From a virus: a DNA stretch of 47,538 nt. Shown piece after piece: positions 14,750-47,538 of the stretch. Each line of letters opens with the position of its first letter. Position 1 is the stretch's first letter. Both the position numbers and the translations under genes were made by a program. The stretch is from the IMG/VR virus record IMGVR_UViG_3300050030_000036, positions 1 through 47,538 of that record. One strand, 5' to 3'. The notes beneath the pieces were generated by a model. The model was given only the letters and a program-made list of their open reading frames with translations, ran no database searches and had not been told where the DNA came from.

Positions 14750-14925
14750 CACGCCCCCACCTTCCCCGCGGGGCTGATCGGCACGGGCTTGATGCGGTCT
14801 TCCCAGCCCACGATGTAGGTCCGCTGGCACTTCCGGCAGCGGTACACGCCCATCACCGGGTGCATTGGCGCGCCGTGGAACTGACGGCACCAGGCACGCG
14901 CCAGGCTCTCGTAGAGGTTGCGCAT
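14749..14925 (-). CDS. small zinc-ribbon-like protein
   Basis: The 58-residue protein starts at ATG 14925 overlapping the upstream TGA. It contains YRCRKCQRTYIVGWEDR, with one Cys-x-x-Cys knuckle, and an earlier Cys (WCRQF). A zinc or DNA-binding role is possible. It shares the CATCACGCCACC junction sequence with two neighbours. Confidence 0.6.
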   Translation of the reverse strand: MRNLYESLARAWCRQFHGAPMHPVMGVYRCRKCQRTYIVGWEDRIKPVPISPAGKVGA

Positions 14926-15185
14926 CACGCCACCCTCCTTTCGCCCGTGGGCGGCAGCTTCACGTGAAATCGGATAGGGAACCAATCACAGGCAGTTTCA
15001 GCACCCGTGTAGCTGAGGAGCCATTCACAGGTGCGGTTGAAATGGTGGCAGTCGGCGCACGTCGTGCCGGATGGCAGTTCCCGCGTGCGGTATATCTGGC
15101 CACTGCGCCCGGCGCTCCCGGGGCACACCAACGTTTCCGGCTGATGCCGTTCTTTTGGGTACCCACACATGCACGACATACTCAT
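14925..15185 (-). CDS. Cys-rich small protein
   Basis: The 86-residue protein starts at ATG 15185 (TGATG with the upstream stop). Cys occur in MSCMCGYP, CADCHHFNRTCEWLLS and ETACDWFP. The signature C..C..F.RTC.WLLS..G.ETxCDWFPIRF matches a family of small phage proteins known to me only as hypotheticals. It probably binds zinc. Confidence 0.65.
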   Translation of the reverse strand: MSMSCMCGYPKERHQPETLVCPGSAGRSGQIYRTRELPSGTTCADCHHFNRTCEWLLSYTGAETACDWFPIRFHVKLPPTGERRVA

Positions 15186-15401
15186 CACGCCACCAGCCTT
15201 TCACAGCACACCGGGGCATGCCGGTAGAGTTCGTCTCCCCCGAAACGGTCCTGATCGTGGAGGAGCCGGGGAAGGATGATATCGCACCCAGTGATGTAAG
15301 AGCCACACTGCAAACAGTACGGATGCCATGTCAGGCCAGCATCATCACTTCGCTGAATCCATAGATTCCGCATCACGCCACCAGCCTTTCGCAGCACACC
15401 G
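15183..15401 (-). repeat. 31-bp repeated gene junction
   Basis: CATCACGCCACCAGCCTTTC followed by (A/G)CAGCACACCG occurs at 15183-15213 and 15371-15401 with one mismatch. A shorter form (CATCACGCCACC) is at 14923. On the reverse strand it encodes the CCERLVA tail plus stop, contains the ribosome site GAAAGG and ends at the ATG of the next gene. It acts as a portable stop/start junction. Confidence 0.8.
15185..15373 (-). CDS. small Cys-containing protein
   Basis: The 62-residue protein starts at ATG 15373. It has CLQCGSYITGCD and a C-terminal VCCERLVA identical to that of the upstream gene. The identical tails come from a repeated gene junction, not from homology of the whole proteins. The function is unknown. 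Confidence 0.6.
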   Translation of the reverse strand: MRNLWIQRSDDAGLTWHPYCLQCGSYITGCDIILPRLLHDQDRFGGDELYRHAPVCCERLVA

Positions 15402-17206: not shown

Positions 17207-17871
17207 TGCGTTGCGCCATCTACGCCCGCGTGAGCACCGTCGATCAGGATTGCTCGATGCAGTTGGACGAACTGCGTCGGTACGTCAAGGCGCGCGGCTG
17301 GCCCAAGGGCGAGGAGTACGTGGATACCGGCTTCAGTGGCACAAAGGCTTCACGGCCGGAGTTGGACCGCCTGATGCGGGACGCACGGGTCCGGCGGGTG
17401 GATTGCATCGTGGTGTGGAAGTTGGATCGCTGGGGGCGCTCGCTGGGGAATTTGATCGGCAGCCTGGCGGAGTTAGGCGGCCTGGGAGTGCGTTGGATCG
17501 CCACGACCCAAAACATCGACACAGACGAGAGCAACCCAACAGGGCGGCTGCTCCTGCATATCATGGGCGCGGTCGCTGAGTTCGAGCGCGAGATGATGCG
17601 CGAGCGCACCTTGGCCGGGTTGGCCCACGCCAGGTCGCAGGGGCGCGTGGGCGGCCGGCCGGCCAGGGTATTTGATCGCTACCACGCGAAGGATTTGCGC
17701 GATCAGGGGATGAGTTGGCGCGGGATTGAGAAGGAATTGGGCATCGCGCAAAGCTCGATCCGTAAGGCGCTCGCGCACCTGCCGGTCAAACCCGTGCGCG
17801 GTAAAACGCACACGAAGGGCGGTGATCCAACCCCTTCCCCCGCGCGTCGGCCCGCGCGATCGCGCGCTTGA
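17206..17871 (+). CDS. serine recombinase (resolvase/invertase family)
   Basis: The 221-residue protein starts at ATG 17206, whose A is the last base of the upstream TGA. The N-terminal catalytic domain has the nucleophile motif YARVSTVDQ (Ser at about residue 10), the DTGFSGTKASRPELDRLM segment, and VVWKLDRWGRS with the conserved Arg pair. EFEREMMRERT is the long E-helix of the family. The C-terminus has a helix-turn-helix (MSWRGIEKELGIAQSSIRKA) and a basic tail. Small members of this family resolve or invert DNA; large ones integrate. It is the only recombinase in the window, so it could manage integration, dimer resolution or an invertible segment. Confidence 0.9.
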   Translation: MRCAIYARVSTVDQDCSMQLDELRRYVKARGWPKGEEYVDTGFSGTKASRPELDRLMRDARVRRVDCIVVWKLDRWGRSLGNLIGSLAELGGLGVRWIATTQNIDTDESNPTGRLLLHIMGAVAEFEREMMRERTLAGLAHARSQGRVGGRPARVFDRYHAKDLRDQGMSWRGIEKELGIAQSSIRKALAHLPVKPVRGKTHTKGGDPTPSPARRPARSRA

Positions 17872-20591: not shown

Positions 20592-20960
20592 TTATTGCAG
20601 AATCACCGTCGCCAGGACTTGCTTTGCGTCCCTTCGGCGCCGTTTCGCGTCTGTATATGCCGTACGGCACAGAGGGCACCGGCACCCGTGGTAAATGTAA
20701 CCGACCTCCTTGCCGTGATAGTGCACGGGGATGGGATGGGCCAAGCGCCGAAGGCGCAAATACGCCCGCCGATATGTTACGCATGGATCGCACCGGCAAC
20801 CCACCTTGTAAGCGTATAGTGCCCCGTGGGTAAGAGCACTACGCTTCCTGTTTCGGGGAGGGGGAGGGTTGTCCTCGGCGCGGATCATACGTGTCAAGGC
20901 GCGCATTCGGCCATTCCCTACAGGCTCAACTATCGGCAACATCGACACTGGCATAGTCAC
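20592..20960 (-). CDS. small duplicated zinc-finger-like protein
   Basis: The 122-residue protein starts at GTG 20960 (GTGA with the upstream stop) or ATG 20954. Two similar cores are seen: THGALYAYKVGCRCDPCVTY (about 44-63) and YHGCRCPLCRTAYTDAKRR (about 90-108). Each holds H-G..GCRC..C followed by a basic helix. The HG..GYxxGCRCxxC pattern is common in small phage and actinobacterial proteins and probably binds zinc. Confidence 0.65.
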   Translation of the reverse strand: MTMPVSMLPIVEPVGNGRMRALTRMIRAEDNPPPPRNRKRSALTHGALYAYKVGCRCDPCVTYRRAYLRLRRLAHPIPVHYHGKEVGYIYHGCRCPLCRTAYTDAKRRRRDAKQVLATVILQ

Positions 20961-21829
20961 TTCGCGGTCCAGATCGTCACTCCATCCGGTAGCACCATAG
21001 AAATCCCGATGAGGGGCAGGAGAGAGCCATCAGGCAGCCGTATGGTGGCGCGGAGCAATCCTGCGCAGTCCCAGCCGGGGCCGGACCCCACGCACTGCTC
21101 AATACCAACCAGGGAGGGCAGTGGTGGTGAAGCGTTGCGTACGTCCCCAACCACTTTCCAATCGCTGCCGGCGAAGCACCAGAACAGATGGCCGGTATCC
21201 GTGGCCAGGAAGAACGTCAGACCGGACGCGGGGCACAAGGGCGGGGCGGATTCCAGCCCAGTGAGGTAGGGAGCATACGTAGGCGGGACAGGCGGGACCG
21301 TGTCATCGTCAATCTGAATGCCCGAGATCACCGCATTCCCCTGTGAAGCCGTCAGAACGATCAGGAGCAGCGGTCCGGTGATTACCACCGGAAACGACTC
21401 CGAATAAGGTGTCAGCGCGCCCGGGGCAACCGCGAACAGGTCCAAAGACGACAGATCCAGGGACGCGATGTGCAATGCACCATTGACCGCTACCGAAAAC
21501 ACGCGCTGTCCGATGGCCGTCTTGTTTGGCTCCAGAAATTTCAGGGTCACCGTGTAGATGCCGGGGCTCATTGGAATCGTGTAGGAGACCGGCGAGCCAG
21601 CCGGATAGGCCGAATACCTCAGCGTTTTGTACGGCACCGGCAGAGTGGCCATGGTTGCCTGATTCGTCGTATCCCACCGCGCGCCGCCGGTGAAGTAGGC
21701 GTCTGGTTTCCAGACGTTGCCCTGCGCGTCCTTTCCGCCTGGCCCTCCGCACTGGATCCGCACCAGGGTTGCGGCGTGGGCGGAGAGGGCCAGGAGAAGT
21801 GGGAGTAGCAGCAGGCGGTTATCGCGCAT
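20957..21829 (-). CDS. secreted malectin-domain protein
   Basis: The 290-residue protein starts at ATG 21829 after GGGAGGGGGACGG. A Sec signal peptide (residues 1-20, RLLLLPLLLALSAHA) is followed by a malectin-like carbohydrate-binding domain (residues 21-165). Its marks are IQCGGPGGKDAQGNVW, YTIPMSPGIYTVTLKFLEP, GQRVFSVAVNG and NAVISGIQIDDD. The last 120 residues are Pro/Cys-containing and unrecognised. Malectin domains bind di- and oligosaccharides. A phage product sent out of the host cell would suggest surface modification or lysogenic conversion. Confidence 0.75.
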   Translation of the reverse strand: MRDNRLLLLPLLLALSAHAATLVRIQCGGPGGKDAQGNVWKPDAYFTGGARWDTTNQATMATLPVPYKTLRYSAYPAGSPVSYTIPMSPGIYTVTLKFLEPNKTAIGQRVFSVAVNGALHIASLDLSSLDLFAVAPGALTPYSESFPVVITGPLLLIVLTASQGNAVISGIQIDDDTVPPVPPTYAPYLTGLESAPPLCPASGLTFFLATDTGHLFWCFAGSDWKVVGDVRNASPPLPSLVGIEQCVGSGPGWDCAGLLRATIRLPDGSLLPLIGISMVLPDGVTIWTAK

Positions 21830-28501: not shown

Positions 28502-28716
28502 CGAAGCTCCAGGCTGCTGCGAAGCTCCAGGCTGCTGGGGAGTTCGTTGAATCGACCGCAAAAGTCCTGGCCGATGAATTGACCATTGTGTTGCTCAAAG
28601 AGGGGACGGATTTGAATCTATCGGGAGACGATCGGGCAGCATTTCGCTATTCTCTCACCCGGTGTGGCCAGCTACTCAACGGGCTCGTGACGATGGCCAG
28701 AGAGATGAAAGCATGA
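28492..28716 (+). CDS. hypothetical helical protein
   Basis: The 74-residue protein starts at ATG 28492. An 18-bp tandem duplication near the start doubles AAKLQA. The rest is helical (VESTAKVLADELTIVLLKEG, RCGQLLNGLVTMAREMKA). It is coupled by ATGA to the small terminase gene. The function is unknown. Confidence 0.55.
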   Translation: MALTKLQAAAKLQAAGEFVESTAKVLADELTIVLLKEGTDLNLSGDDRAAFRYSLTRCGQLLNGLVTMAREMKA

Positions 28717-29174
28717 ACCGCTCCCCCATCTTTTTGGCCGCCTACCGCGAAACCGGCTCCGTCACCCGGGCGGCGGAAGCGGCGGGCATCCACCGGAGCA
28801 TCCACTACCGGAGATTGCAGGAAGATCCCGCCTACAAGGCGGCCTTCGAGCGGGCCCACGAAGTGGCGATCGCGGTCCTCGAAGACGAAGCGATCCGGCG
28901 GGCGGTGGAGGGCGTAGAAGAGCCCCTGACGTATCAAGGCCAGTTTCAATACGCAGACCTGGATGACGACGGGAACCCCGCTGGAAAGCCGCTGGCCATC
29001 CGCAAATACTCCGACAGCCTGCTCCAGTTCCTGCTCAGGGGAGCCAAACCGGAGAAGTACCGCGAACGGTTCTCGCATGACGTGAACGCCAAGGTGACTC
29101 ATAAGTTTGATGGCACGCTTGAAGATCTGCTCACCACATATCGCGCTCTCACGGCGGACGATTCGAAAGCGTGA
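28713..29174 (+). CDS. terminase small subunit
   Basis: The 153-residue protein starts at ATG 28713 overlapping the previous stop. The N-terminal helix-turn-helix (FLAAYRETGSVTRAAEAAGI, HRSIHYRRLQEDPAYKAAF) is followed by helices (ERAHEVAIAVLEDEAIRRAV) and IRKYSDSLLQFLLRGAKPEK with the C-terminal YRERF. This is the small-subunit pattern of many phages, which binds the packaging site. Its last 65 bases overlap the FliA-like sigma gene. Confidence 0.8.
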   Translation: MNRSPIFLAAYRETGSVTRAAEAAGIHRSIHYRRLQEDPAYKAAFERAHEVAIAVLEDEAIRRAVEGVEEPLTYQGQFQYADLDDDGNPAGKPLAIRKYSDSLLQFLLRGAKPEKYRERFSHDVNAKVTHKFDGTLEDLLTTYRALTADDSKA

Positions 29175-29718
29175 CGGCCTGGTCCTGGAGCACCTGGAAT
29201 GGGCTCACGGGATCGCGCGTCGCGTCGCCTCACTGCTGCCGACGTGGTTCACCTTCGAAGACCTTTGCGGCCCCGTGGAACTCGCCTTGTTTGAGCGGGC
29301 GGCATCATTTGATCCCAAGCGTGGCATCCCCTTCAAAGCTTATGCCTCGCGGCGCATCCACGGTGCCTGTTTCGATTCGGTACGGCGCAAGGAGTACCGG
29401 GAGCGGGGACACTTGTCGCTGTCAACCCATCGGCTCGGTTTGCTTCGAGATGACGGTGGCAACCGGGAGATGGACGGGGTGGACGCCCAGGCGTGCGACC
29501 CAAATCCTTCCCCCGAAGCGCAGGCGGCTTCTCACGAACAAGTCCACGTCTGGGCGCAGGTGCAGCAGCTCCCCCCGCGCCACGCCCTGGTAATCCTGGC
29601 GGTCTACGGCGGCGGCATGACGCTTGAGACTTTGGCCACCAAGGTGGACGTGGGATCGAGCAGGCTCTCCCAGATCCATCATGAGGCGCTGAGGATGCTC
29701 AAAGGGATGGCCGCGTGA
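29110..29718 (+). CDS. FliA/WhiG-type sigma factor
   Basis: The 202-residue protein is taken to start at ATG 29110, so the overlap with the terminase gene is long; TTG 29107 is an alternative. Region 2 (residues 24-95) carries HLEWAHGIARRVASLLP, FTFEDLCGPVELALFERA and FDPKRGIPFKAYASRRIHGA. The F-D-P-x-R-G..F..YA..RIrGA..D..R signature marks flagellar/WhiG-type sigma factors. Region 4 (residues 150-200, LPPRHALVILAVYGGGMTLE, LSQIHHEALRMLKGM) has the C-terminal helix-turn-helix. It is the likely reader of the TAAG-N11/12-GGCGATA sites. Confidence 0.85.
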   Translation: MARLKICSPHIALSRRTIRKRDGLVLEHLEWAHGIARRVASLLPTWFTFEDLCGPVELALFERAASFDPKRGIPFKAYASRRIHGACFDSVRRKEYRERGHLSLSTHRLGLLRDDGGNREMDGVDAQACDPNPSPEAQAASHEQVHVWAQVQQLPPRHALVILAVYGGGMTLETLATKVDVGSSRLSQIHHEALRMLKGMAA

Positions 29719-30218
29719 TCCTGACCGGCGAGGCCGAATTGCTGGCGAAGGTCCGCTACTCGCTCCTGGCCAGGGGGGTGAGATATGACGACGTGGACGA
29801 TTGCGCGCAGGACGTGATACTGGCCCTTTTGACAACGCGAGTGGATGTCAAGGACCAAGGGGCCTACGCTATCGGGATCGCGCGCCATGCCGCCTTGGAA
29901 TGGATGGCGGGCTCGATCCGGGAACGGCTGCGGGACGATTTGGCGCTGATCGAAAACGTGACGCCCTCGCGCGAGCCGGACGCCTTAGCCCAGTTGGAGC
30001 GCCGCGAGAAACTGGGACTCGCGGGCGCGGTGCTCCGGGGGCTGCCAACGGAGCAACGCGACATCCTGACGCGTTTCTATTTGCAGGGACAGAAGGAACC
30101 AGAGATACGCCAGGCGATGAGCCTCACCCCGACGCAATTCCGCCTGGGCAAGCACCGCGCCAAGGCAACTTTGAGCGCCCGCGTGCAACGCGCACTGGCC
30201 GCCAAGGTGGCGGCATGA
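29715..30218 (+). CDS. ECF-like sigma-70 family factor
   Basis: The 167-residue protein starts at GTG 29715 (GTGA). Region 2 (residues 5-75): AELLAKVRYSLLARGVRYDD, VDDCAQDVILALL and YAIGIARHAALEWM. The DDxxQDV..AL core is typical of ECF sigma factors. Region 4 (residues 108-158): LPTEQRDILTRFYLQGQKEP, EIRQAMSLTPTQFRLGKHRA. The start and stop overlap both neighbours, which guarantees co-translation. It may read a second set of promoters that I could not define. Confidence 0.8.
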   Translation: MILTGEAELLAKVRYSLLARGVRYDDVDDCAQDVILALLTTRVDVKDQGAYAIGIARHAALEWMAGSIRERLRDDLALIENVTPSREPDALAQLERREKLGLAGAVLRGLPTEQRDILTRFYLQGQKEPEIRQAMSLTPTQFRLGKHRAKATLSARVQRALAAKVAA

Positions 30219-31939
30219 GCCTCACGGTACAGGAAAGCGCCCAACTGATCCGCGCCTTCGCCGATCACCCGCAGTTCGCCCGTGAATCACTGCGCATCCG
30301 CGCCAAGTCCGGCGCCATGGTGCCCTTCGAGCTTCAGCCAGCGCAAACCAAGCTGAATCGGGCCATCCTGAAGCAGCGGAACGCCGGACTCCCGGTTCGG
30401 ATCTGCTACCTGAAGGCCGGCCAGGTCATGGTCTCCGCCGGAACCGCGGCGCAGAACTTCCACGCCGTGCCCTTCATGCCGGGTCGGCACTGCCTGGCGC
30501 TTGCGGACTCGGCGGCGCACGCCGACCTCGTTTTCAACTACTACAAGGGCTTCCAAGACCATTACCAGCCCTTCACCGGCGGCATCCCCGGCGCCCAAGT
30601 CACGCTTCCGGAGCTGGTGAACGACCGGGACGAAACCCTGAAGTGGGCCAACGACAGCTTCATCCAGATCGCCACCGGCCGGAACGTCCACGTGGGGCGT
30701 GCTCACCCCTGGCAGTTCGTCCAGGTCTCGGAATTTGGTTTCCAAGAGGGTGGCGCGACGTTGATGGACGGCTTGATGCAGCGGGTTCCAAACTCGCCCG
30801 AGACCATGGTCATCGTCGAATCCACCGGCTTTGGTGAGGGCGGCCCGTTCTACGAGCTTTGCCAGCGCGCGCAAGATCCCCAGCGCGCCGGCGGCTGGCT
30901 CTTCGTCTTCTTCGGCTGGCAGGAACACCCGGAATATCAGATGCCGGTACCGGGCGGCGATCGCGGGGCCTTCCAGCGCGACCTCGACCGCGGCGAGCTC
31001 GAAGTCATGCAGCAGTACGGCCTCAAGCTCGAACAGATGGCCTGGCGGCGCTGGGCCATCCTCAACAACTGCGAAGGCCATGTCTCGACCTTCCAGCAAG
31101 AGTTCCCGAGCAACCCGCGCGAGTGCTTTCAATCGAGCAACCGGACCTACCTGGACCTGGGCGCCCTGGAACGTTGCGTCCGGGTAGAAGAGCCGATGCG
31201 CGGCGAGCTGGATATCCACCAGGTCGGGCCGGAACGGCGGGTGCAATTCCTGCAAAAGGACGGCGGCACGCTGGCCATCTACCGGTTGCCGAAAAAGGGC
31301 GGCCGGTACGTGATCGGCGCGGACAGCGCGCAGGGCAAGGACCCCGAGGCAAAAAAGGGCGGCCGGAGCGATCCCGACTACGCAAGCGCGGACGTCACGG
31401 ACGCCGACACCGGAGAGCAGGTGGCGAAGTACAACGAGCGCGTCACAGAAAGCCACTTCGGGCGCATCATTTACGCCCTGGGCTGGTACTACAACTGGGC
31501 CTACGTGGTGCCAGAGACGGTGGGCGCCGGCCGGGCCTTCCTCCAGGCGCTCTTGGCACTGGAGTACCCCACCGACAGGATCTACCGAAAGCAGCGACCG
31601 GCCGGCGACATGCGCCCGGTCACGTTCAACGAGTTGGGCTACGACACCAATACGGTCACGCGCCCGCAATTACTGAGCGCGCTCGACGTGGCGCTGCTCG
31701 AAGGGTCGATCACGATTCACGACGCGGGGACGGCCATGCAATGCCGGACGCTGGTGCGGGATGCGGACGGGCACGTGGCGGCGAAGCTGGGCACCCATGA
31801 CGACGACGTGTTCAGCAAGGCGCTGGGAGTAATCGGGCTCCGGTTCATCCCGAAGGATGCGCCGATGTCTTCGCAGGAATTTCAGAAGCAGTGGAACCCG
31901 CAGAGTTACAAAACGAAAACGAGGGAAGACGATGACTGA
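30215..31939 (+). CDS. terminase large subunit
   Basis: The 574-residue protein starts at ATG 30215 overlapping the sigma stop. The ATPase domain has LKAGQVMVSAG (residues 66-76) where the usual Walker A is KxRQxGxST, so the P-loop Arg and Gly are replaced by Gly and Met. Walker B is MVIVESTGFGEGG (198-210), with catalytic Glu202. The nuclease domain has YVIGADSAQG (Asp370), VPETVGAG (Glu434) and HDDDVFSKALG (Asp530/531), the three acidic sites of a RNase H-like nuclease. It cuts and pumps DNA into the procapsid. Confidence 0.9.
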   Translation: MSLTVQESAQLIRAFADHPQFARESLRIRAKSGAMVPFELQPAQTKLNRAILKQRNAGLPVRICYLKAGQVMVSAGTAAQNFHAVPFMPGRHCLALADSAAHADLVFNYYKGFQDHYQPFTGGIPGAQVTLPELVNDRDETLKWANDSFIQIATGRNVHVGRAHPWQFVQVSEFGFQEGGATLMDGLMQRVPNSPETMVIVESTGFGEGGPFYELCQRAQDPQRAGGWLFVFFGWQEHPEYQMPVPGGDRGAFQRDLDRGELEVMQQYGLKLEQMAWRRWAILNNCEGHVSTFQQEFPSNPRECFQSSNRTYLDLGALERCVRVEEPMRGELDIHQVGPERRVQFLQKDGGTLAIYRLPKKGGRYVIGADSAQGKDPEAKKGGRSDPDYASADVTDADTGEQVAKYNERVTESHFGRIIYALGWYYNWAYVVPETVGAGRAFLQALLALEYPTDRIYRKQRPAGDMRPVTFNELGYDTNTVTRPQLLSALDVALLEGSITIHDAGTAMQCRTLVRDADGHVAAKLGTHDDDVFSKALGVIGLRFIPKDAPMSSQEFQKQWNPQSYKTKTREDDD

Positions 31940-32180
31940 CCGCGACGGCCCGCGCTCCAACCCCTACCACCCGGACCCGGAGAAGTGCTGCGAAGCGTGC
32001 GTCTTCGGAAGCGGCGAGCATGCCCGATGGTGCGCTCTCTACCAATGCTCCATGTGTGGCGAATTCCACGGGCCGCCGAACGACCTCGCCTGTCCGCGGC
32101 CCTGGCTTCATTGGAAGGATTGGCCACTCAGGCCGACCCGAACCGATGGCGATACCTCAGACGTGAAGCATGCCTCCTAA
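31932..32180 (+). CDS. small Cys-rich protein
   Basis: The 82-residue protein starts at ATG 31932, inside the terminase stop region (8-base overlap). It has CCEACVFGSGEHARWCALYQ and CSMCGEF plus ACPRPW, giving several Cys-x-x-Cys pairs for one or two zinc ions. Its stop overlaps the portal start by 11 bases. The function is unknown. Confidence 0.6.
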   Translation: MTDRDGPRSNPYHPDPEKCCEACVFGSGEHARWCALYQCSMCGEFHGPPNDLACPRPWLHWKDWPLRPTRTDGDTSDVKHAS

Positions 32181-34431
32181 ATCCTTTCAAATCCAACTGA
32201 GCGACGGCGAGAAAAACAACCTGGTCAACCGGATCGAGTTGGACTTCCTCACCGACAAGTCGAGCCACCTTTCTTGGTCGACGCGTTGCGCCGGATGGAT
32301 GAAGAAATGGGAAGCCCGCGTTGAGGCGCCCAGAGTCGGCGACGAAGACAAACCGAACCACGTGGTGCCCCTGATTCAGTGGCAGTGCTTCAACAAGTTG
32401 GCACGGGAAATCCAGGCGCTGCTCGGCGATAACGCGGAGATCACCGCGCGCGGCACCGGCCCATCGGACAAGAAAGTGGTTGCCAAGGTCGGCGCCTACA
32501 TGACCTCGCGCGTGTTCGACCAGATGCAATTGATCAACCCGCTCTGCGAGTTCGAATTCCGTCGCATCCTGAACGGCTGGGCAGCGGCGTATCGCCCATG
32601 GTGGCGCCGCGAGTTTGATACTTTGCAAAACGGCAAGATCAAGCGCGTGTGCGACTACGAAGGCCCCGGATTCTTTCCCCTCGAACCCGATGACCTCATG
32701 GTCCCTCCAGAGCGCGGCGTGAGATCCCTCCAGGAATTCAGCCATGTGATCCGCCGCGTGCGGGTGACGGTGGATGATCTGCAACGTGGCGACGGCACGC
32801 TTTACCAGGGGACCAGCGACCCGGACATGGTCACCAAGCTGATCAACTGGGCCAAGATTGGCGGGCAGGGCAACGACTACACCATGGACGGGCAAGACCC
32901 GGTGAGAGAAGAGCGCGAGCGCTCCGAAGGCGTGGACTACAGCGCCTACTCGCTGGGACGGCGCTCGATTTGGATGTGGGAGTGGTACGGATATTGGCGG
33001 CCGCTGAAGAAACAGAGCAGGGACGGCGCTATCGACGATCTGGAAACGCGGCTGCCGTACGAAGCGGACTACGTCGTCAAGTTCATCCCCGGCCTGCGAG
33101 AGATCGTGGGCTGTCAGGATCTGTTGCAACTGTATCCGAAGATGCGCCGCAGACGTCCGTTCGTCGAGAGCACGCTCATCAAGGACGGCACGTACCGGCC
33201 CAAGGGATTCGGCGCGCTCCTGGAAGATCTGGAAGACGAACTGACCGCCAATTCCCGCTTGTTTCAGGCGGCCGGCGAGCTGAGCGTCTGGCCCATCGTG
33301 TTCTTCAAGCCGGGCGGCGGCATGAAGCCGGGCAACTTCCGATTGGAACCGGGCATGGCAATTCCCACGGAGGACCCGGCGTCCGTAAATATCGTCAAAC
33401 TCAATCCGAATCTGGATTTTCTGGTGGCGCGGCAGCAGGACATCCTCACCACCTCAGAGCGGATCACCAACATCAACGATCAGTCCATGGGTCGCTCCAT
33501 GAGCCAGCCGAACGCGCCGAAGACCGCCACCGGCCAGCTCGCGCTGATCGAAGAGGGCAATGTTCGCGCCTATTTGGACAGCACGATTCTCCGGGAGGAC
33601 ATGGAAGAGATCGTAGGCGACTTCTGGGACCTGGACTGTGACCTGGCCCCGAAGACGCAACCCGGCCTATTCTTCCGCGTGACGGAAGAGCAGGCAAACG
33701 GCCTCTTCGACGTGTCCAAGGGCGGCGCTCACATGACGCCCAAAGAATTCGGCGGAGTCTACGACTTCCGGCTGAAGTTCGCCACCAGCGTCTGGGCGCG
33801 CAATGCCAAGAAACAGGAGTTCATCGGCTTCTATCAGGCCGCGATGATGAACCCGCTCTGCATGCAGAATCCCACGGCCATGTGGCACCTGCTGAACATG
33901 CTGGCGAAGCAGTTCGACATCGACTTCCAGGACGTGATCCCCAAGCCGCCGGAACCCGATGCGCCGAAGACACCGGACCAGGAATGGACCGAGATGCTGG
34001 AAGGGGAGACGGTCAACGTCAACCCGCTGGATAACGACGATCAGCACATCCAGGAGCACATCCAGCAGTTGGAAGACGAGCGCAAGGACCCGGATCGGGA
34101 TGTCCAGGCCATTGGCATGAATGTGAAGCACATCCTGGATCACCAGCAGCAGAAACGGGCCAAGATGCTCATGCAGACCCTGACCTCTCAGCTCATGCAG
34201 AGCATTCAACCGCCTCAACAGAGTCCGGCACAGCAGACGATTCAGCAGCTCCAGCAGATGTACGGCGGCCAACAGCAGCAGCAGCAGCAACCCGGTCCAC
34301 CCCAAGGAATGCCCCCACAGCAACCCGCAATGGGCGGCCCGCCGCAGTCCGGCGCGCCCGGGGATGTCCAGGCTCCGCCGCAAGCCGTGGGCTCCCAGGC
34401 GGCCCCGCAACCCGTGGATGGGCAACTCTGA
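32170..34431 (+). CDS. portal protein
   Basis: The 753-residue protein is of the size and layout of P22-type portals: a helical N-terminus, wing region, a long helical stem, and a C-terminal Gln/Pro-rich tail (residues 680-753). Marks are IQWQCFNKLAREIQALLGDN, PDDLMVPPERGVRSLQEFSH, SERITNINDQSMGRSMSQPN (a clip-like segment) and EEGNVRAYLDSTILREDMEE. The last is a stretch found in podoviral portals. Position directly after the terminase fits. It forms the dodecameric DNA gate. Confidence 0.8.
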   Translation: MPPKSFQIQLSDGEKNNLVNRIELDFLTDKSSHLSWSTRCAGWMKKWEARVEAPRVGDEDKPNHVVPLIQWQCFNKLAREIQALLGDNAEITARGTGPSDKKVVAKVGAYMTSRVFDQMQLINPLCEFEFRRILNGWAAAYRPWWRREFDTLQNGKIKRVCDYEGPGFFPLEPDDLMVPPERGVRSLQEFSHVIRRVRVTVDDLQRGDGTLYQGTSDPDMVTKLINWAKIGGQGNDYTMDGQDPVREERERSEGVDYSAYSLGRRSIWMWEWYGYWRPLKKQSRDGAIDDLETRLPYEADYVVKFIPGLREIVGCQDLLQLYPKMRRRRPFVESTLIKDGTYRPKGFGALLEDLEDELTANSRLFQAAGELSVWPIVFFKPGGGMKPGNFRLEPGMAIPTEDPASVNIVKLNPNLDFLVARQQDILTTSERITNINDQSMGRSMSQPNAPKTATGQLALIEEGNVRAYLDSTILREDMEEIVGDFWDLDCDLAPKTQPGLFFRVTEEQANGLFDVSKGGAHMTPKEFGGVYDFRLKFATSVWARNAKKQEFIGFYQAAMMNPLCMQNPTAMWHLLNMLAKQFDIDFQDVIPKPPEPDAPKTPDQEWTEMLEGETVNVNPLDNDDQHIQEHIQQLEDERKDPDRDVQAIGMNVKHILDHQQQKRAKMLMQTLTSQLMQSIQPPQQSPAQQTIQQLQQMYGGQQQQQQQPGPPQGMPPQQPAMGGPPQSGAPGDVQAPPQAVGSQAAPQPVDGQL

Positions 34432-47476: not shown

Positions 47477-47538
47477 ATGGAATTCAGAGTCGTTAACGAA
47501 TTGAATGAAATCGACTTGGTTTATTCCAGCAACGGAGT
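47477..47538 (+). CDS. tail-associated protein, 5' part of the gene spanning the join
   Basis: ATG 47477 follows the previous TAA by two bases; the sequence upstream is CAGGAGTTTAAGA. The frame (MEFRVVNELNEIDLVYSSNG) continues without a break into base 1 once the 46-bp overlap is merged, giving 121 residues. The window end cuts the gene here. Confidence 0.85.
   Translation, partial: MEFRVVNELNEIDLVYSSNG
47493..47538. repeat. right copy of 46-bp terminal repeat
   Basis: Identical to bases 1-46 except T at 47506 (A at 14). The single difference inside an otherwise exact overlap suggests either an assembly or sequencing error or a mixed population. Confidence 0.9.

Follow-up and report, generated by a model that had tools for sequence, protein, structure and literature searches.

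Two unlike sigma factor genes in series between the terminase genes of a phage probably from soil Acidobacteriota

We analysed the virus record IMGVR_UViG_3300050030_000036 from IMG/VR over its whole length of 47,538 bases, referred to below as the window. Between its genes for the small (TerS) and large (TerL) terminase subunits we could observe two genes for different members of the sigma-70 family, here called sig1 and sig2. The order is TerS-sig1-sig2-TerL without an intergenic gap, and neighbouring genes overlap by 65 (TerS/sig1), 4 (sig1/sig2) and 4 bases (sig2/TerL), which suggests that their translation is coupled. An initial annotation had placed two sigma factors of different lineages in series between the terminase genes; its coordinates and overlaps proved exact, and profile searches and a phylogenetic tree support the assignment. 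In the reading that we favour, with about even confidence, sig1 is a conserved late sigma factor co-produced with the terminase, sig2 adds a parallel specificity confined to this lineage, and both redirect the host RNA polymerase. The four genes are:

28713-29174, plus strand: TerS, small terminase subunit (type 1, PHROG 4044-like; PHROG 4044 E 2.8e-33; homologues in relatives)
29110-29718, plus strand: sig1, two-domain sigma factor (ATG start; profile and PDB matches, structure model)
29715-30218, plus strand: sig2, sigma factor of the extracytoplasmic function (ECF) type (GTG start; profile and PDB matches, Acidobacteriota ECFs)
30215-31939, plus strand: TerL, large terminase subunit (ATG start; tblastn to annotated large terminases)

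The sig1 frame also offers alternative TTG starts at 29107 and 29119. Only these two genes in the whole record match the sigma region 2 model PF04542.

sig1 is a member of the sigma-70 family, with regions 2 and 4 above the curated cut-offs of the Pfam hidden Markov models (HMMs) PF04542 (1.1e-11, 44.8 bits, cut-off 24) and PF04545 (2.7e-10, 40.0 bits, cut-off 24.1). Among NCBIfam models it matches FliA_WhiG at 4e-21 and the sigma70-ECF superfamily with 66.5 bits (cut-off 42.9), and its sequence matches in the PDB are FliA and WhiG. The protein consists of a sigma2 domain (about residues 20-95), a disordered linker and a sigma4 domain (about residues 135-200). An AlphaFold2 (AF2) model built with 11 family members shows two helical domains mostly with a predicted local distance difference test score (pLDDT) >90, and a linker (98-129) <50. 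This model matches sigma28, WhiG and sigmaA (Foldseek, VIA); domain 2 aligns to 8b3z over 78 residues with a Z score of 11.5 and a root-mean-square deviation of 1.4.

The spacer between regions 2 and 4 comprises 62 residues in sig1 and 36–70 in all phage relatives measured, whereas almost every FliA-like protein of Acidobacteriota has 93–108 (the exceptions have 81 and 67). sig1 thus lacks sigma domain 3. In a quick tree with long branches it groups with 12 other phage sigma factors, apart from the host FliA-like proteins (support 86). The initial description of sig1 as FliA/WhiG-like therefore holds for its sequence but not for its architecture, and the tree tends to place it in a phage-only group. 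Because it combines a FliA-like sequence with a layout of the ECF kind, it should not be classed as a FliA protein. Across 10 other phages, family members are 38–54% identical to sig1 and share invariant residues in regions 2 and 4, so the family looks to be under constraint.

For sig2, the scores were lower. It stays below the Pfam cut-offs for PF08281 (19.2 vs 25.7 bits) and PF04542 (18.7 vs 24 bits). The NCBIfam models Sig-70_gvs1 (2.5e-10) and sigma70-ECF (TIGR02937; 1.7e-9, 37.5 bits vs a cut-off of 42.9) were matched along the full protein, as were the ECF sigma 9isn in the PDB (4e-6) and ECFs in Acidobacteriota genomes (best E 1.3e-12; about 30% identity overall). Its nearest rows in the tree are Acidobacteriota ECFs (L088-L091; L numbers are our labels) with support 80–82, and the ECF profile alignments span residues 10-159, leaving no room for domain 3. 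Homology to ECF sigma factors is thus clear from these comparisons despite the sub-cut-off scores, and the ECF-like label given initially stands. The sigma2 domain is shorter than in host ECFs, and sigma4 is well kept (LTPTQFRLGKHRAKA); its segment RDILTRFYLQGQKEPEIRQAMSLTPTQFRLGKHRAKA resembles the host segment REILTRFYLEEQSQEQICSEMDLSDTQFRLLKSRAKA. A single-sequence AF2 model was uninformative (pLDDT 56, no significant fold match, though the top-ranked chains were sigma factors).

No anti-sigma gene lies beside sig2, whose neighbours are sig1 and TerL. By contrast, translations read around the closest host gene, an ECF (L088), showed it between a large TPR/CHAT-like open reading frame (ORF) and a putative zinc-finger anti-sigma ORF, the latter downstream (L131). 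With Pfam scores under the cut-offs, a short sigma2 and no orthologue found next to any terminase gene, sig2 has an uncertain function.

We considered an origin of the pair by duplication and rejected it. Since sig1 and sig2 cannot be aligned and fall apart in the tree, they are not a recent duplication but unrelated members of the sigma-70 family, of separate origins. A split sigma factor of the T4 gp55 plus gp33 type was discarded as well, as each protein has both sigma2 and sigma4.

Single-sequence searches of viral contigs with sig1 and sig2 gave no match. The family was revealed by the protein in the portal position, which served as its marker. Two genes follow TerL here:

31857-32180, plus strand: small Cys-rich ORF between TerL and the portal-position gene, kept in many relatives; part of the same gene string, outside the sigma unit
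32170-34431, plus strand: portal-position protein, named by its size and its place after TerL; no family model matched

Homologues of the portal-position protein share about 70% identity with it in close relatives, which comprise many viral contigs, and 37–44% in distant ones. Because homologues of about 70% identity also occur in two Acidobacteriota bins, this phylum is suggested as the host, and the window probably derives from an uncultured phage of soil Acidobacteriota. Of the relatives, L034 sits on a 97-kb contig from a Terriglobia bin, and L033 comes from an Acidobacteria bin. TerL homologues lie upstream of the portal-position gene in the relatives, with 44–48% identity in the main ones and 67% in L050; L050 and L070 are the TerL lineages nearest to the window. 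A tblastn search of INPHARED found three "phage" records for sig1 and none for sig2. Two of the three, MT837366.1 and MT840071.1 (L128, L129; "Bacteriophage sp."), were set aside: their genes look bacterial, with chemotaxis and FliA-type genes in one of them, and they are probably mislabelled bacterial fragments. No convincing phage relative of the sig1 family was found among the 50,697 phage records.

We compared 32 TerL lineages (95% clusters with a readable upstream region). A sig1-like gene, in most cases the one that follows TerS, was found close upstream of TerL in 15 of them (the window, L023, L025, L027, L033, L044, L046, L049, L050, L054, L057, L059, L060, L065 and L081), or in 14 of 31 without L081, which had been found via the sigma factor itself. 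We refer to this gene as the slot sigma. At least one other gene separates it from TerL in L050, L033 and L081. It is present in the deepest branches (L059, L060, L065), and mapping its distribution onto the TerL tree takes about seven gains or losses, of which six or more fall on supported branches. The slot sigma thus appears to be an old gene that was repeatedly lost or regained. In 13 of the 15 lineages, an overlap of exactly 4 bases joins its stop codon to the next possible start, and in most of these 13 its frame contains a start within the end of TerS. Across 25 whole records, almost every match to sigma region 2 falls in the terminase neighbourhood.

The gene that follows the slot sigma differs among lineages:

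TerL: L023, L025, L049, L059, L060
another sigma: the window, L054
DUF3102-like protein: L033, L050, L081 (Pfam 1.1e-8 for L081)
small unnamed ORF: L027, probably L046 and L057

For this reason, the position after sig1 is a site for accessory genes, with sig2 as one guest there and, by all indications, a local addition specific to its lineage. Two sigma genes near TerL were seen in three lineages, namely the window, L054, where the second, an unrelated sigma (TIGR02937 3.8e-15), comes immediately after the first, and L049, where the other one (TIGR02479 2.6e-13) is encoded some 1.6 kb before TerS. The arrangement had been called unusual; this is true of the second sigma gene, but not of the slot sigma with its 15 lineages. 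A common origin of sig2 and the second sigma of L054 was rejected, as the two do not align. An ECF related to sig2 is encoded among tail-like genes on viral contig L132 (5890-6438), with 42–47% identity to Acidobacteriota ECFs, and is apparently an independent capture.

Another protein family, with an N-terminal CxxC...CxC pattern and a helix-turn-helix-like part, recurs before or just after TerL and replaces the sigma factor in some phages. Its members are:

L017 1784-2257
L018 5133-5708
L049 3909-4535
L059 5050-5598
L060 7025-7576
L063 1207-1761

Those of L018, L049 and L060 match no Pfam or NCBIfam model, and the L063 copy weakly matches a broad sigma HMM (8e-11). The family is possibly a sigma4-like regulator.

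Two types of TerS could be distinguished, which share the C-terminal motif F-x-G-T/S ... L-L-x-x-Y/F-R-x-L-T. The window carries type 1. Type-2 small terminase proteins resemble PHROG 4044 in no part except this motif (for example L027 4416-4925, L054 3466-4149 and L081 625-1041). A slot sigma is present in each of the 10 type-2 lineages, compared with 3 of the 17 of type 1; in the tested subset the counts with and without sigma were 9/0 and 3/14 (Fisher 7e-5, ignoring kinship). On the TerL tree only 4–5 contrasts are independent; none is contrary, and a sign test is not significant. We therefore treat the association, part of which is explained by kinship, as a lead towards a TerS-sigma link.

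How might the two proteins act? As sigma-70-family specificity factors, sig1 and sig2 would bind the host RNA polymerase and steer it to phage promoters. A low-level first transcript across the packaging genes would supply sigma factor and terminase together, and sig1 could then activate the packaging and virion genes by positive feedback. Because the sigma genes sit inside the terminase gene string, sigma factor and terminase should rise together, as would suit a self-reinforcing late switch. sig2 would be made simultaneously with sig1 and would give a second promoter specificity in parallel, without a later step.

The initial annotation had instead hinted at a two-step cascade, in which one sigma factor turns on the other and splits the late programme in two times. 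Phage sigma cascades do exist, as in SPO1 with gp28 for middle and gp34 for late genes (PMC9429907), and the window does hold two different sigma factors. However, with a 4-base overlap in a gapless string from TerS to TerL, one transcript would yield both at once, and no promoter was found. Parallel specificities fit better, since the overlapping genes are most simply co-transcribed; we consider a cascade very unlikely, although an internal promoter or post-transcriptional control between sig1 and sig2 is possible. One or both proteins, sig2 above all, might otherwise be directed at the host and reprogramme it via ECF promoters, like the sporulation-type sigma factors of Bacillus phages. The sigma4 recognition segment of sig2 (..LTxTQFRLxKxRAKA) is common to Acidobacteriota ECFs, one of which adjoins the putative anti-sigma ORF mentioned above; the ECF on L132 is close to host ones; and some phage sigma factors are known to affect host genes (PMC9429907). 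The position within the terminase gene string is better suited to late phage genes, however, and this reading seems to us rather unlikely.

A sigma factor could also contact TerS or TerL and help to load the packaging motor, by analogy with T4, in which gp17 and gp55 touch (PMC3012670) and a role of this kind has been proposed for them. The place between TerS and TerL, the conserved overlaps and the contrast between TerS types would agree with such a coupling of transcription and packaging. The small number of independent contrasts speaks against it, as do the many sigma-less relatives that retain both terminase genes, and adjacency of genes by itself is no proof of contact. We regard it as quite improbable. 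The stronger version, in which the sigma factor, produced in step with TerS and TerL, works as a component of the terminase module throughout a widespread Acidobacteriota phage family and physically links late transcription to motor loading, is a long shot; if true, the tandem pair would give two such specificities. Lastly, sig2 may be a degraded or repurposed sigma factor that has lost the ability to initiate transcription and acts, for instance, as a sigma4-like protein that competes with sig1 or modulates it. Its shortened sigma2 and low Pfam scores would fit, but its ORF is intact, its GC content at third codon positions is 0.80 and thus phage-typical, and it overlaps both neighbours, so that we hold this to be highly doubtful.

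Several observations weigh against our preferred reading of sig1 and sig2 as parallel late sigma factors. We found no shared promoter motif in the late intergenic regions: the sigma-70 consensus occurred at chance level (3 found vs 3.4 expected), and no dyad motif in 13 late segments was convincing, the best one being no more recurrent than in resampled controls. On the side of sig2 there are the Pfam scores below cut-off, the short sigma2 and the lack of any orthologue found beside a terminase. Moreover, seven relatives with records of 36–51 kb contain sigma region 2 nowhere, and so the sigma factor is dispensable for late expression in the family as a whole.

Some further features of the window were noted. 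A direct repeat of 46 bases at its two ends (1-46 and 47493-47538, 98% identical) makes a complete, circularly permuted assembly probable. At 633-1078, a 42-base unit is repeated eight times in tandem, inside an ORF (351-1121) beside a tail-like gene. A 30-base motif occurs near small minus-strand genes at 14915-14944, 15175-15204 and 15363-15392; on the minus strand it contains GCGAAAGG..GGTGGCGTGATG and is perhaps a shared translation-start or regulatory element. A serine recombinase/resolvase (17257-17871; PF00239 2e-34) is a candidate for integration or inversion, and a Malectin-domain protein (20957-21829, minus strand; PF11721 6e-15) is unusual for a phage.

Phage sigma factors are a main route for the takeover of host transcription, and those known come mostly from phages of model bacteria. 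Here, a two-domain sigma family is located within the terminase module of phages whose probable hosts form an important and little-studied soil phylum. The conserved overlap of its genes with their neighbours makes the sigma-terminase contact of T4 testable in an unrelated system, with the sigma-less relatives as natural comparisons.

Among known families, sig1 is closest to FliA/WhiG (group 3) in its sigma2 and sigma4 sequence and in its best NCBIfam and PDB matches; it and its phage relatives differ by the missing domain 3 and their apparently separate grouping. sig2 shares the two-domain sigma2-sigma4 layout and a similar recognition helix with Acidobacteriota ECFs (group 4), from which it is set apart by its shortened sigma2, its place among packaging genes and the absence of a putative anti-sigma neighbour, a linked gene that is common but not universal in group 4. 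The ArpU model TIGR01637 gave sig2 18.2 bits (cut-off 43.1), with sig1 absent among the matches listed (best 25 families), and the "transcriptional regulator" PHROG 36 gave sig1 E 0.098, no family match. Xpf, linked to prophage PBSX, is also a sigma2-sigma4 protein (PMC10141391).

Contrary to the initial statement that phage sigma factors are known singly, a survey of 4,350 phage genomes reports a single sigma factor for 11.7% of them, two for 1.1% and three for 0.7%, thus two or three in 1.8% (PMC9429907). It lists gp28, gp34 and gp2.21 for SPO1 and three for SP10, with T4 gp55 and SPO1 gp28/gp34 as essential middle or late sigma factors. SPO1 and SP10 resemble the window in having more than one sigma factor per genome, but they are Bacillus phages, and the passages of the survey consulted describe neither an overlapping pair nor a place between terminase genes for them. 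In T4, gp55 takes the host RNA polymerase to late promoters (PMC2988020) and shares the function with gp33, whereas each window protein has both sigma2 and sigma4. The sigma factor of the phiEco32-like phage 7-11 drives late promoters (PMC8948821); phiEco32 expresses it as a middle gene, in the opposite direction to the late cluster, unlike the window genes inside the packaging string. RinA and Ltr, late regulators of Gram-positive phages like ArpU, are small proteins encoded near the terminase genes that activate packaging and virion genes (PMC13123087). They are encoded upstream of terS, and the promoter on which Ltr acts lies immediately 3' of the Ltr gene, while the window sigma gene follows TerS without a gap. 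A scan of titles and abstracts of open-access papers found neither a sigma gene described between TerS and TerL nor a sigma pair with overlapping genes, which is weak evidence of absence. As far as these sources go, phage sigma factors, multi-sigma phages and regulators upstream of terS are known, and what appears to be new is the sigma gene between TerS and TerL and the overlapping pair.
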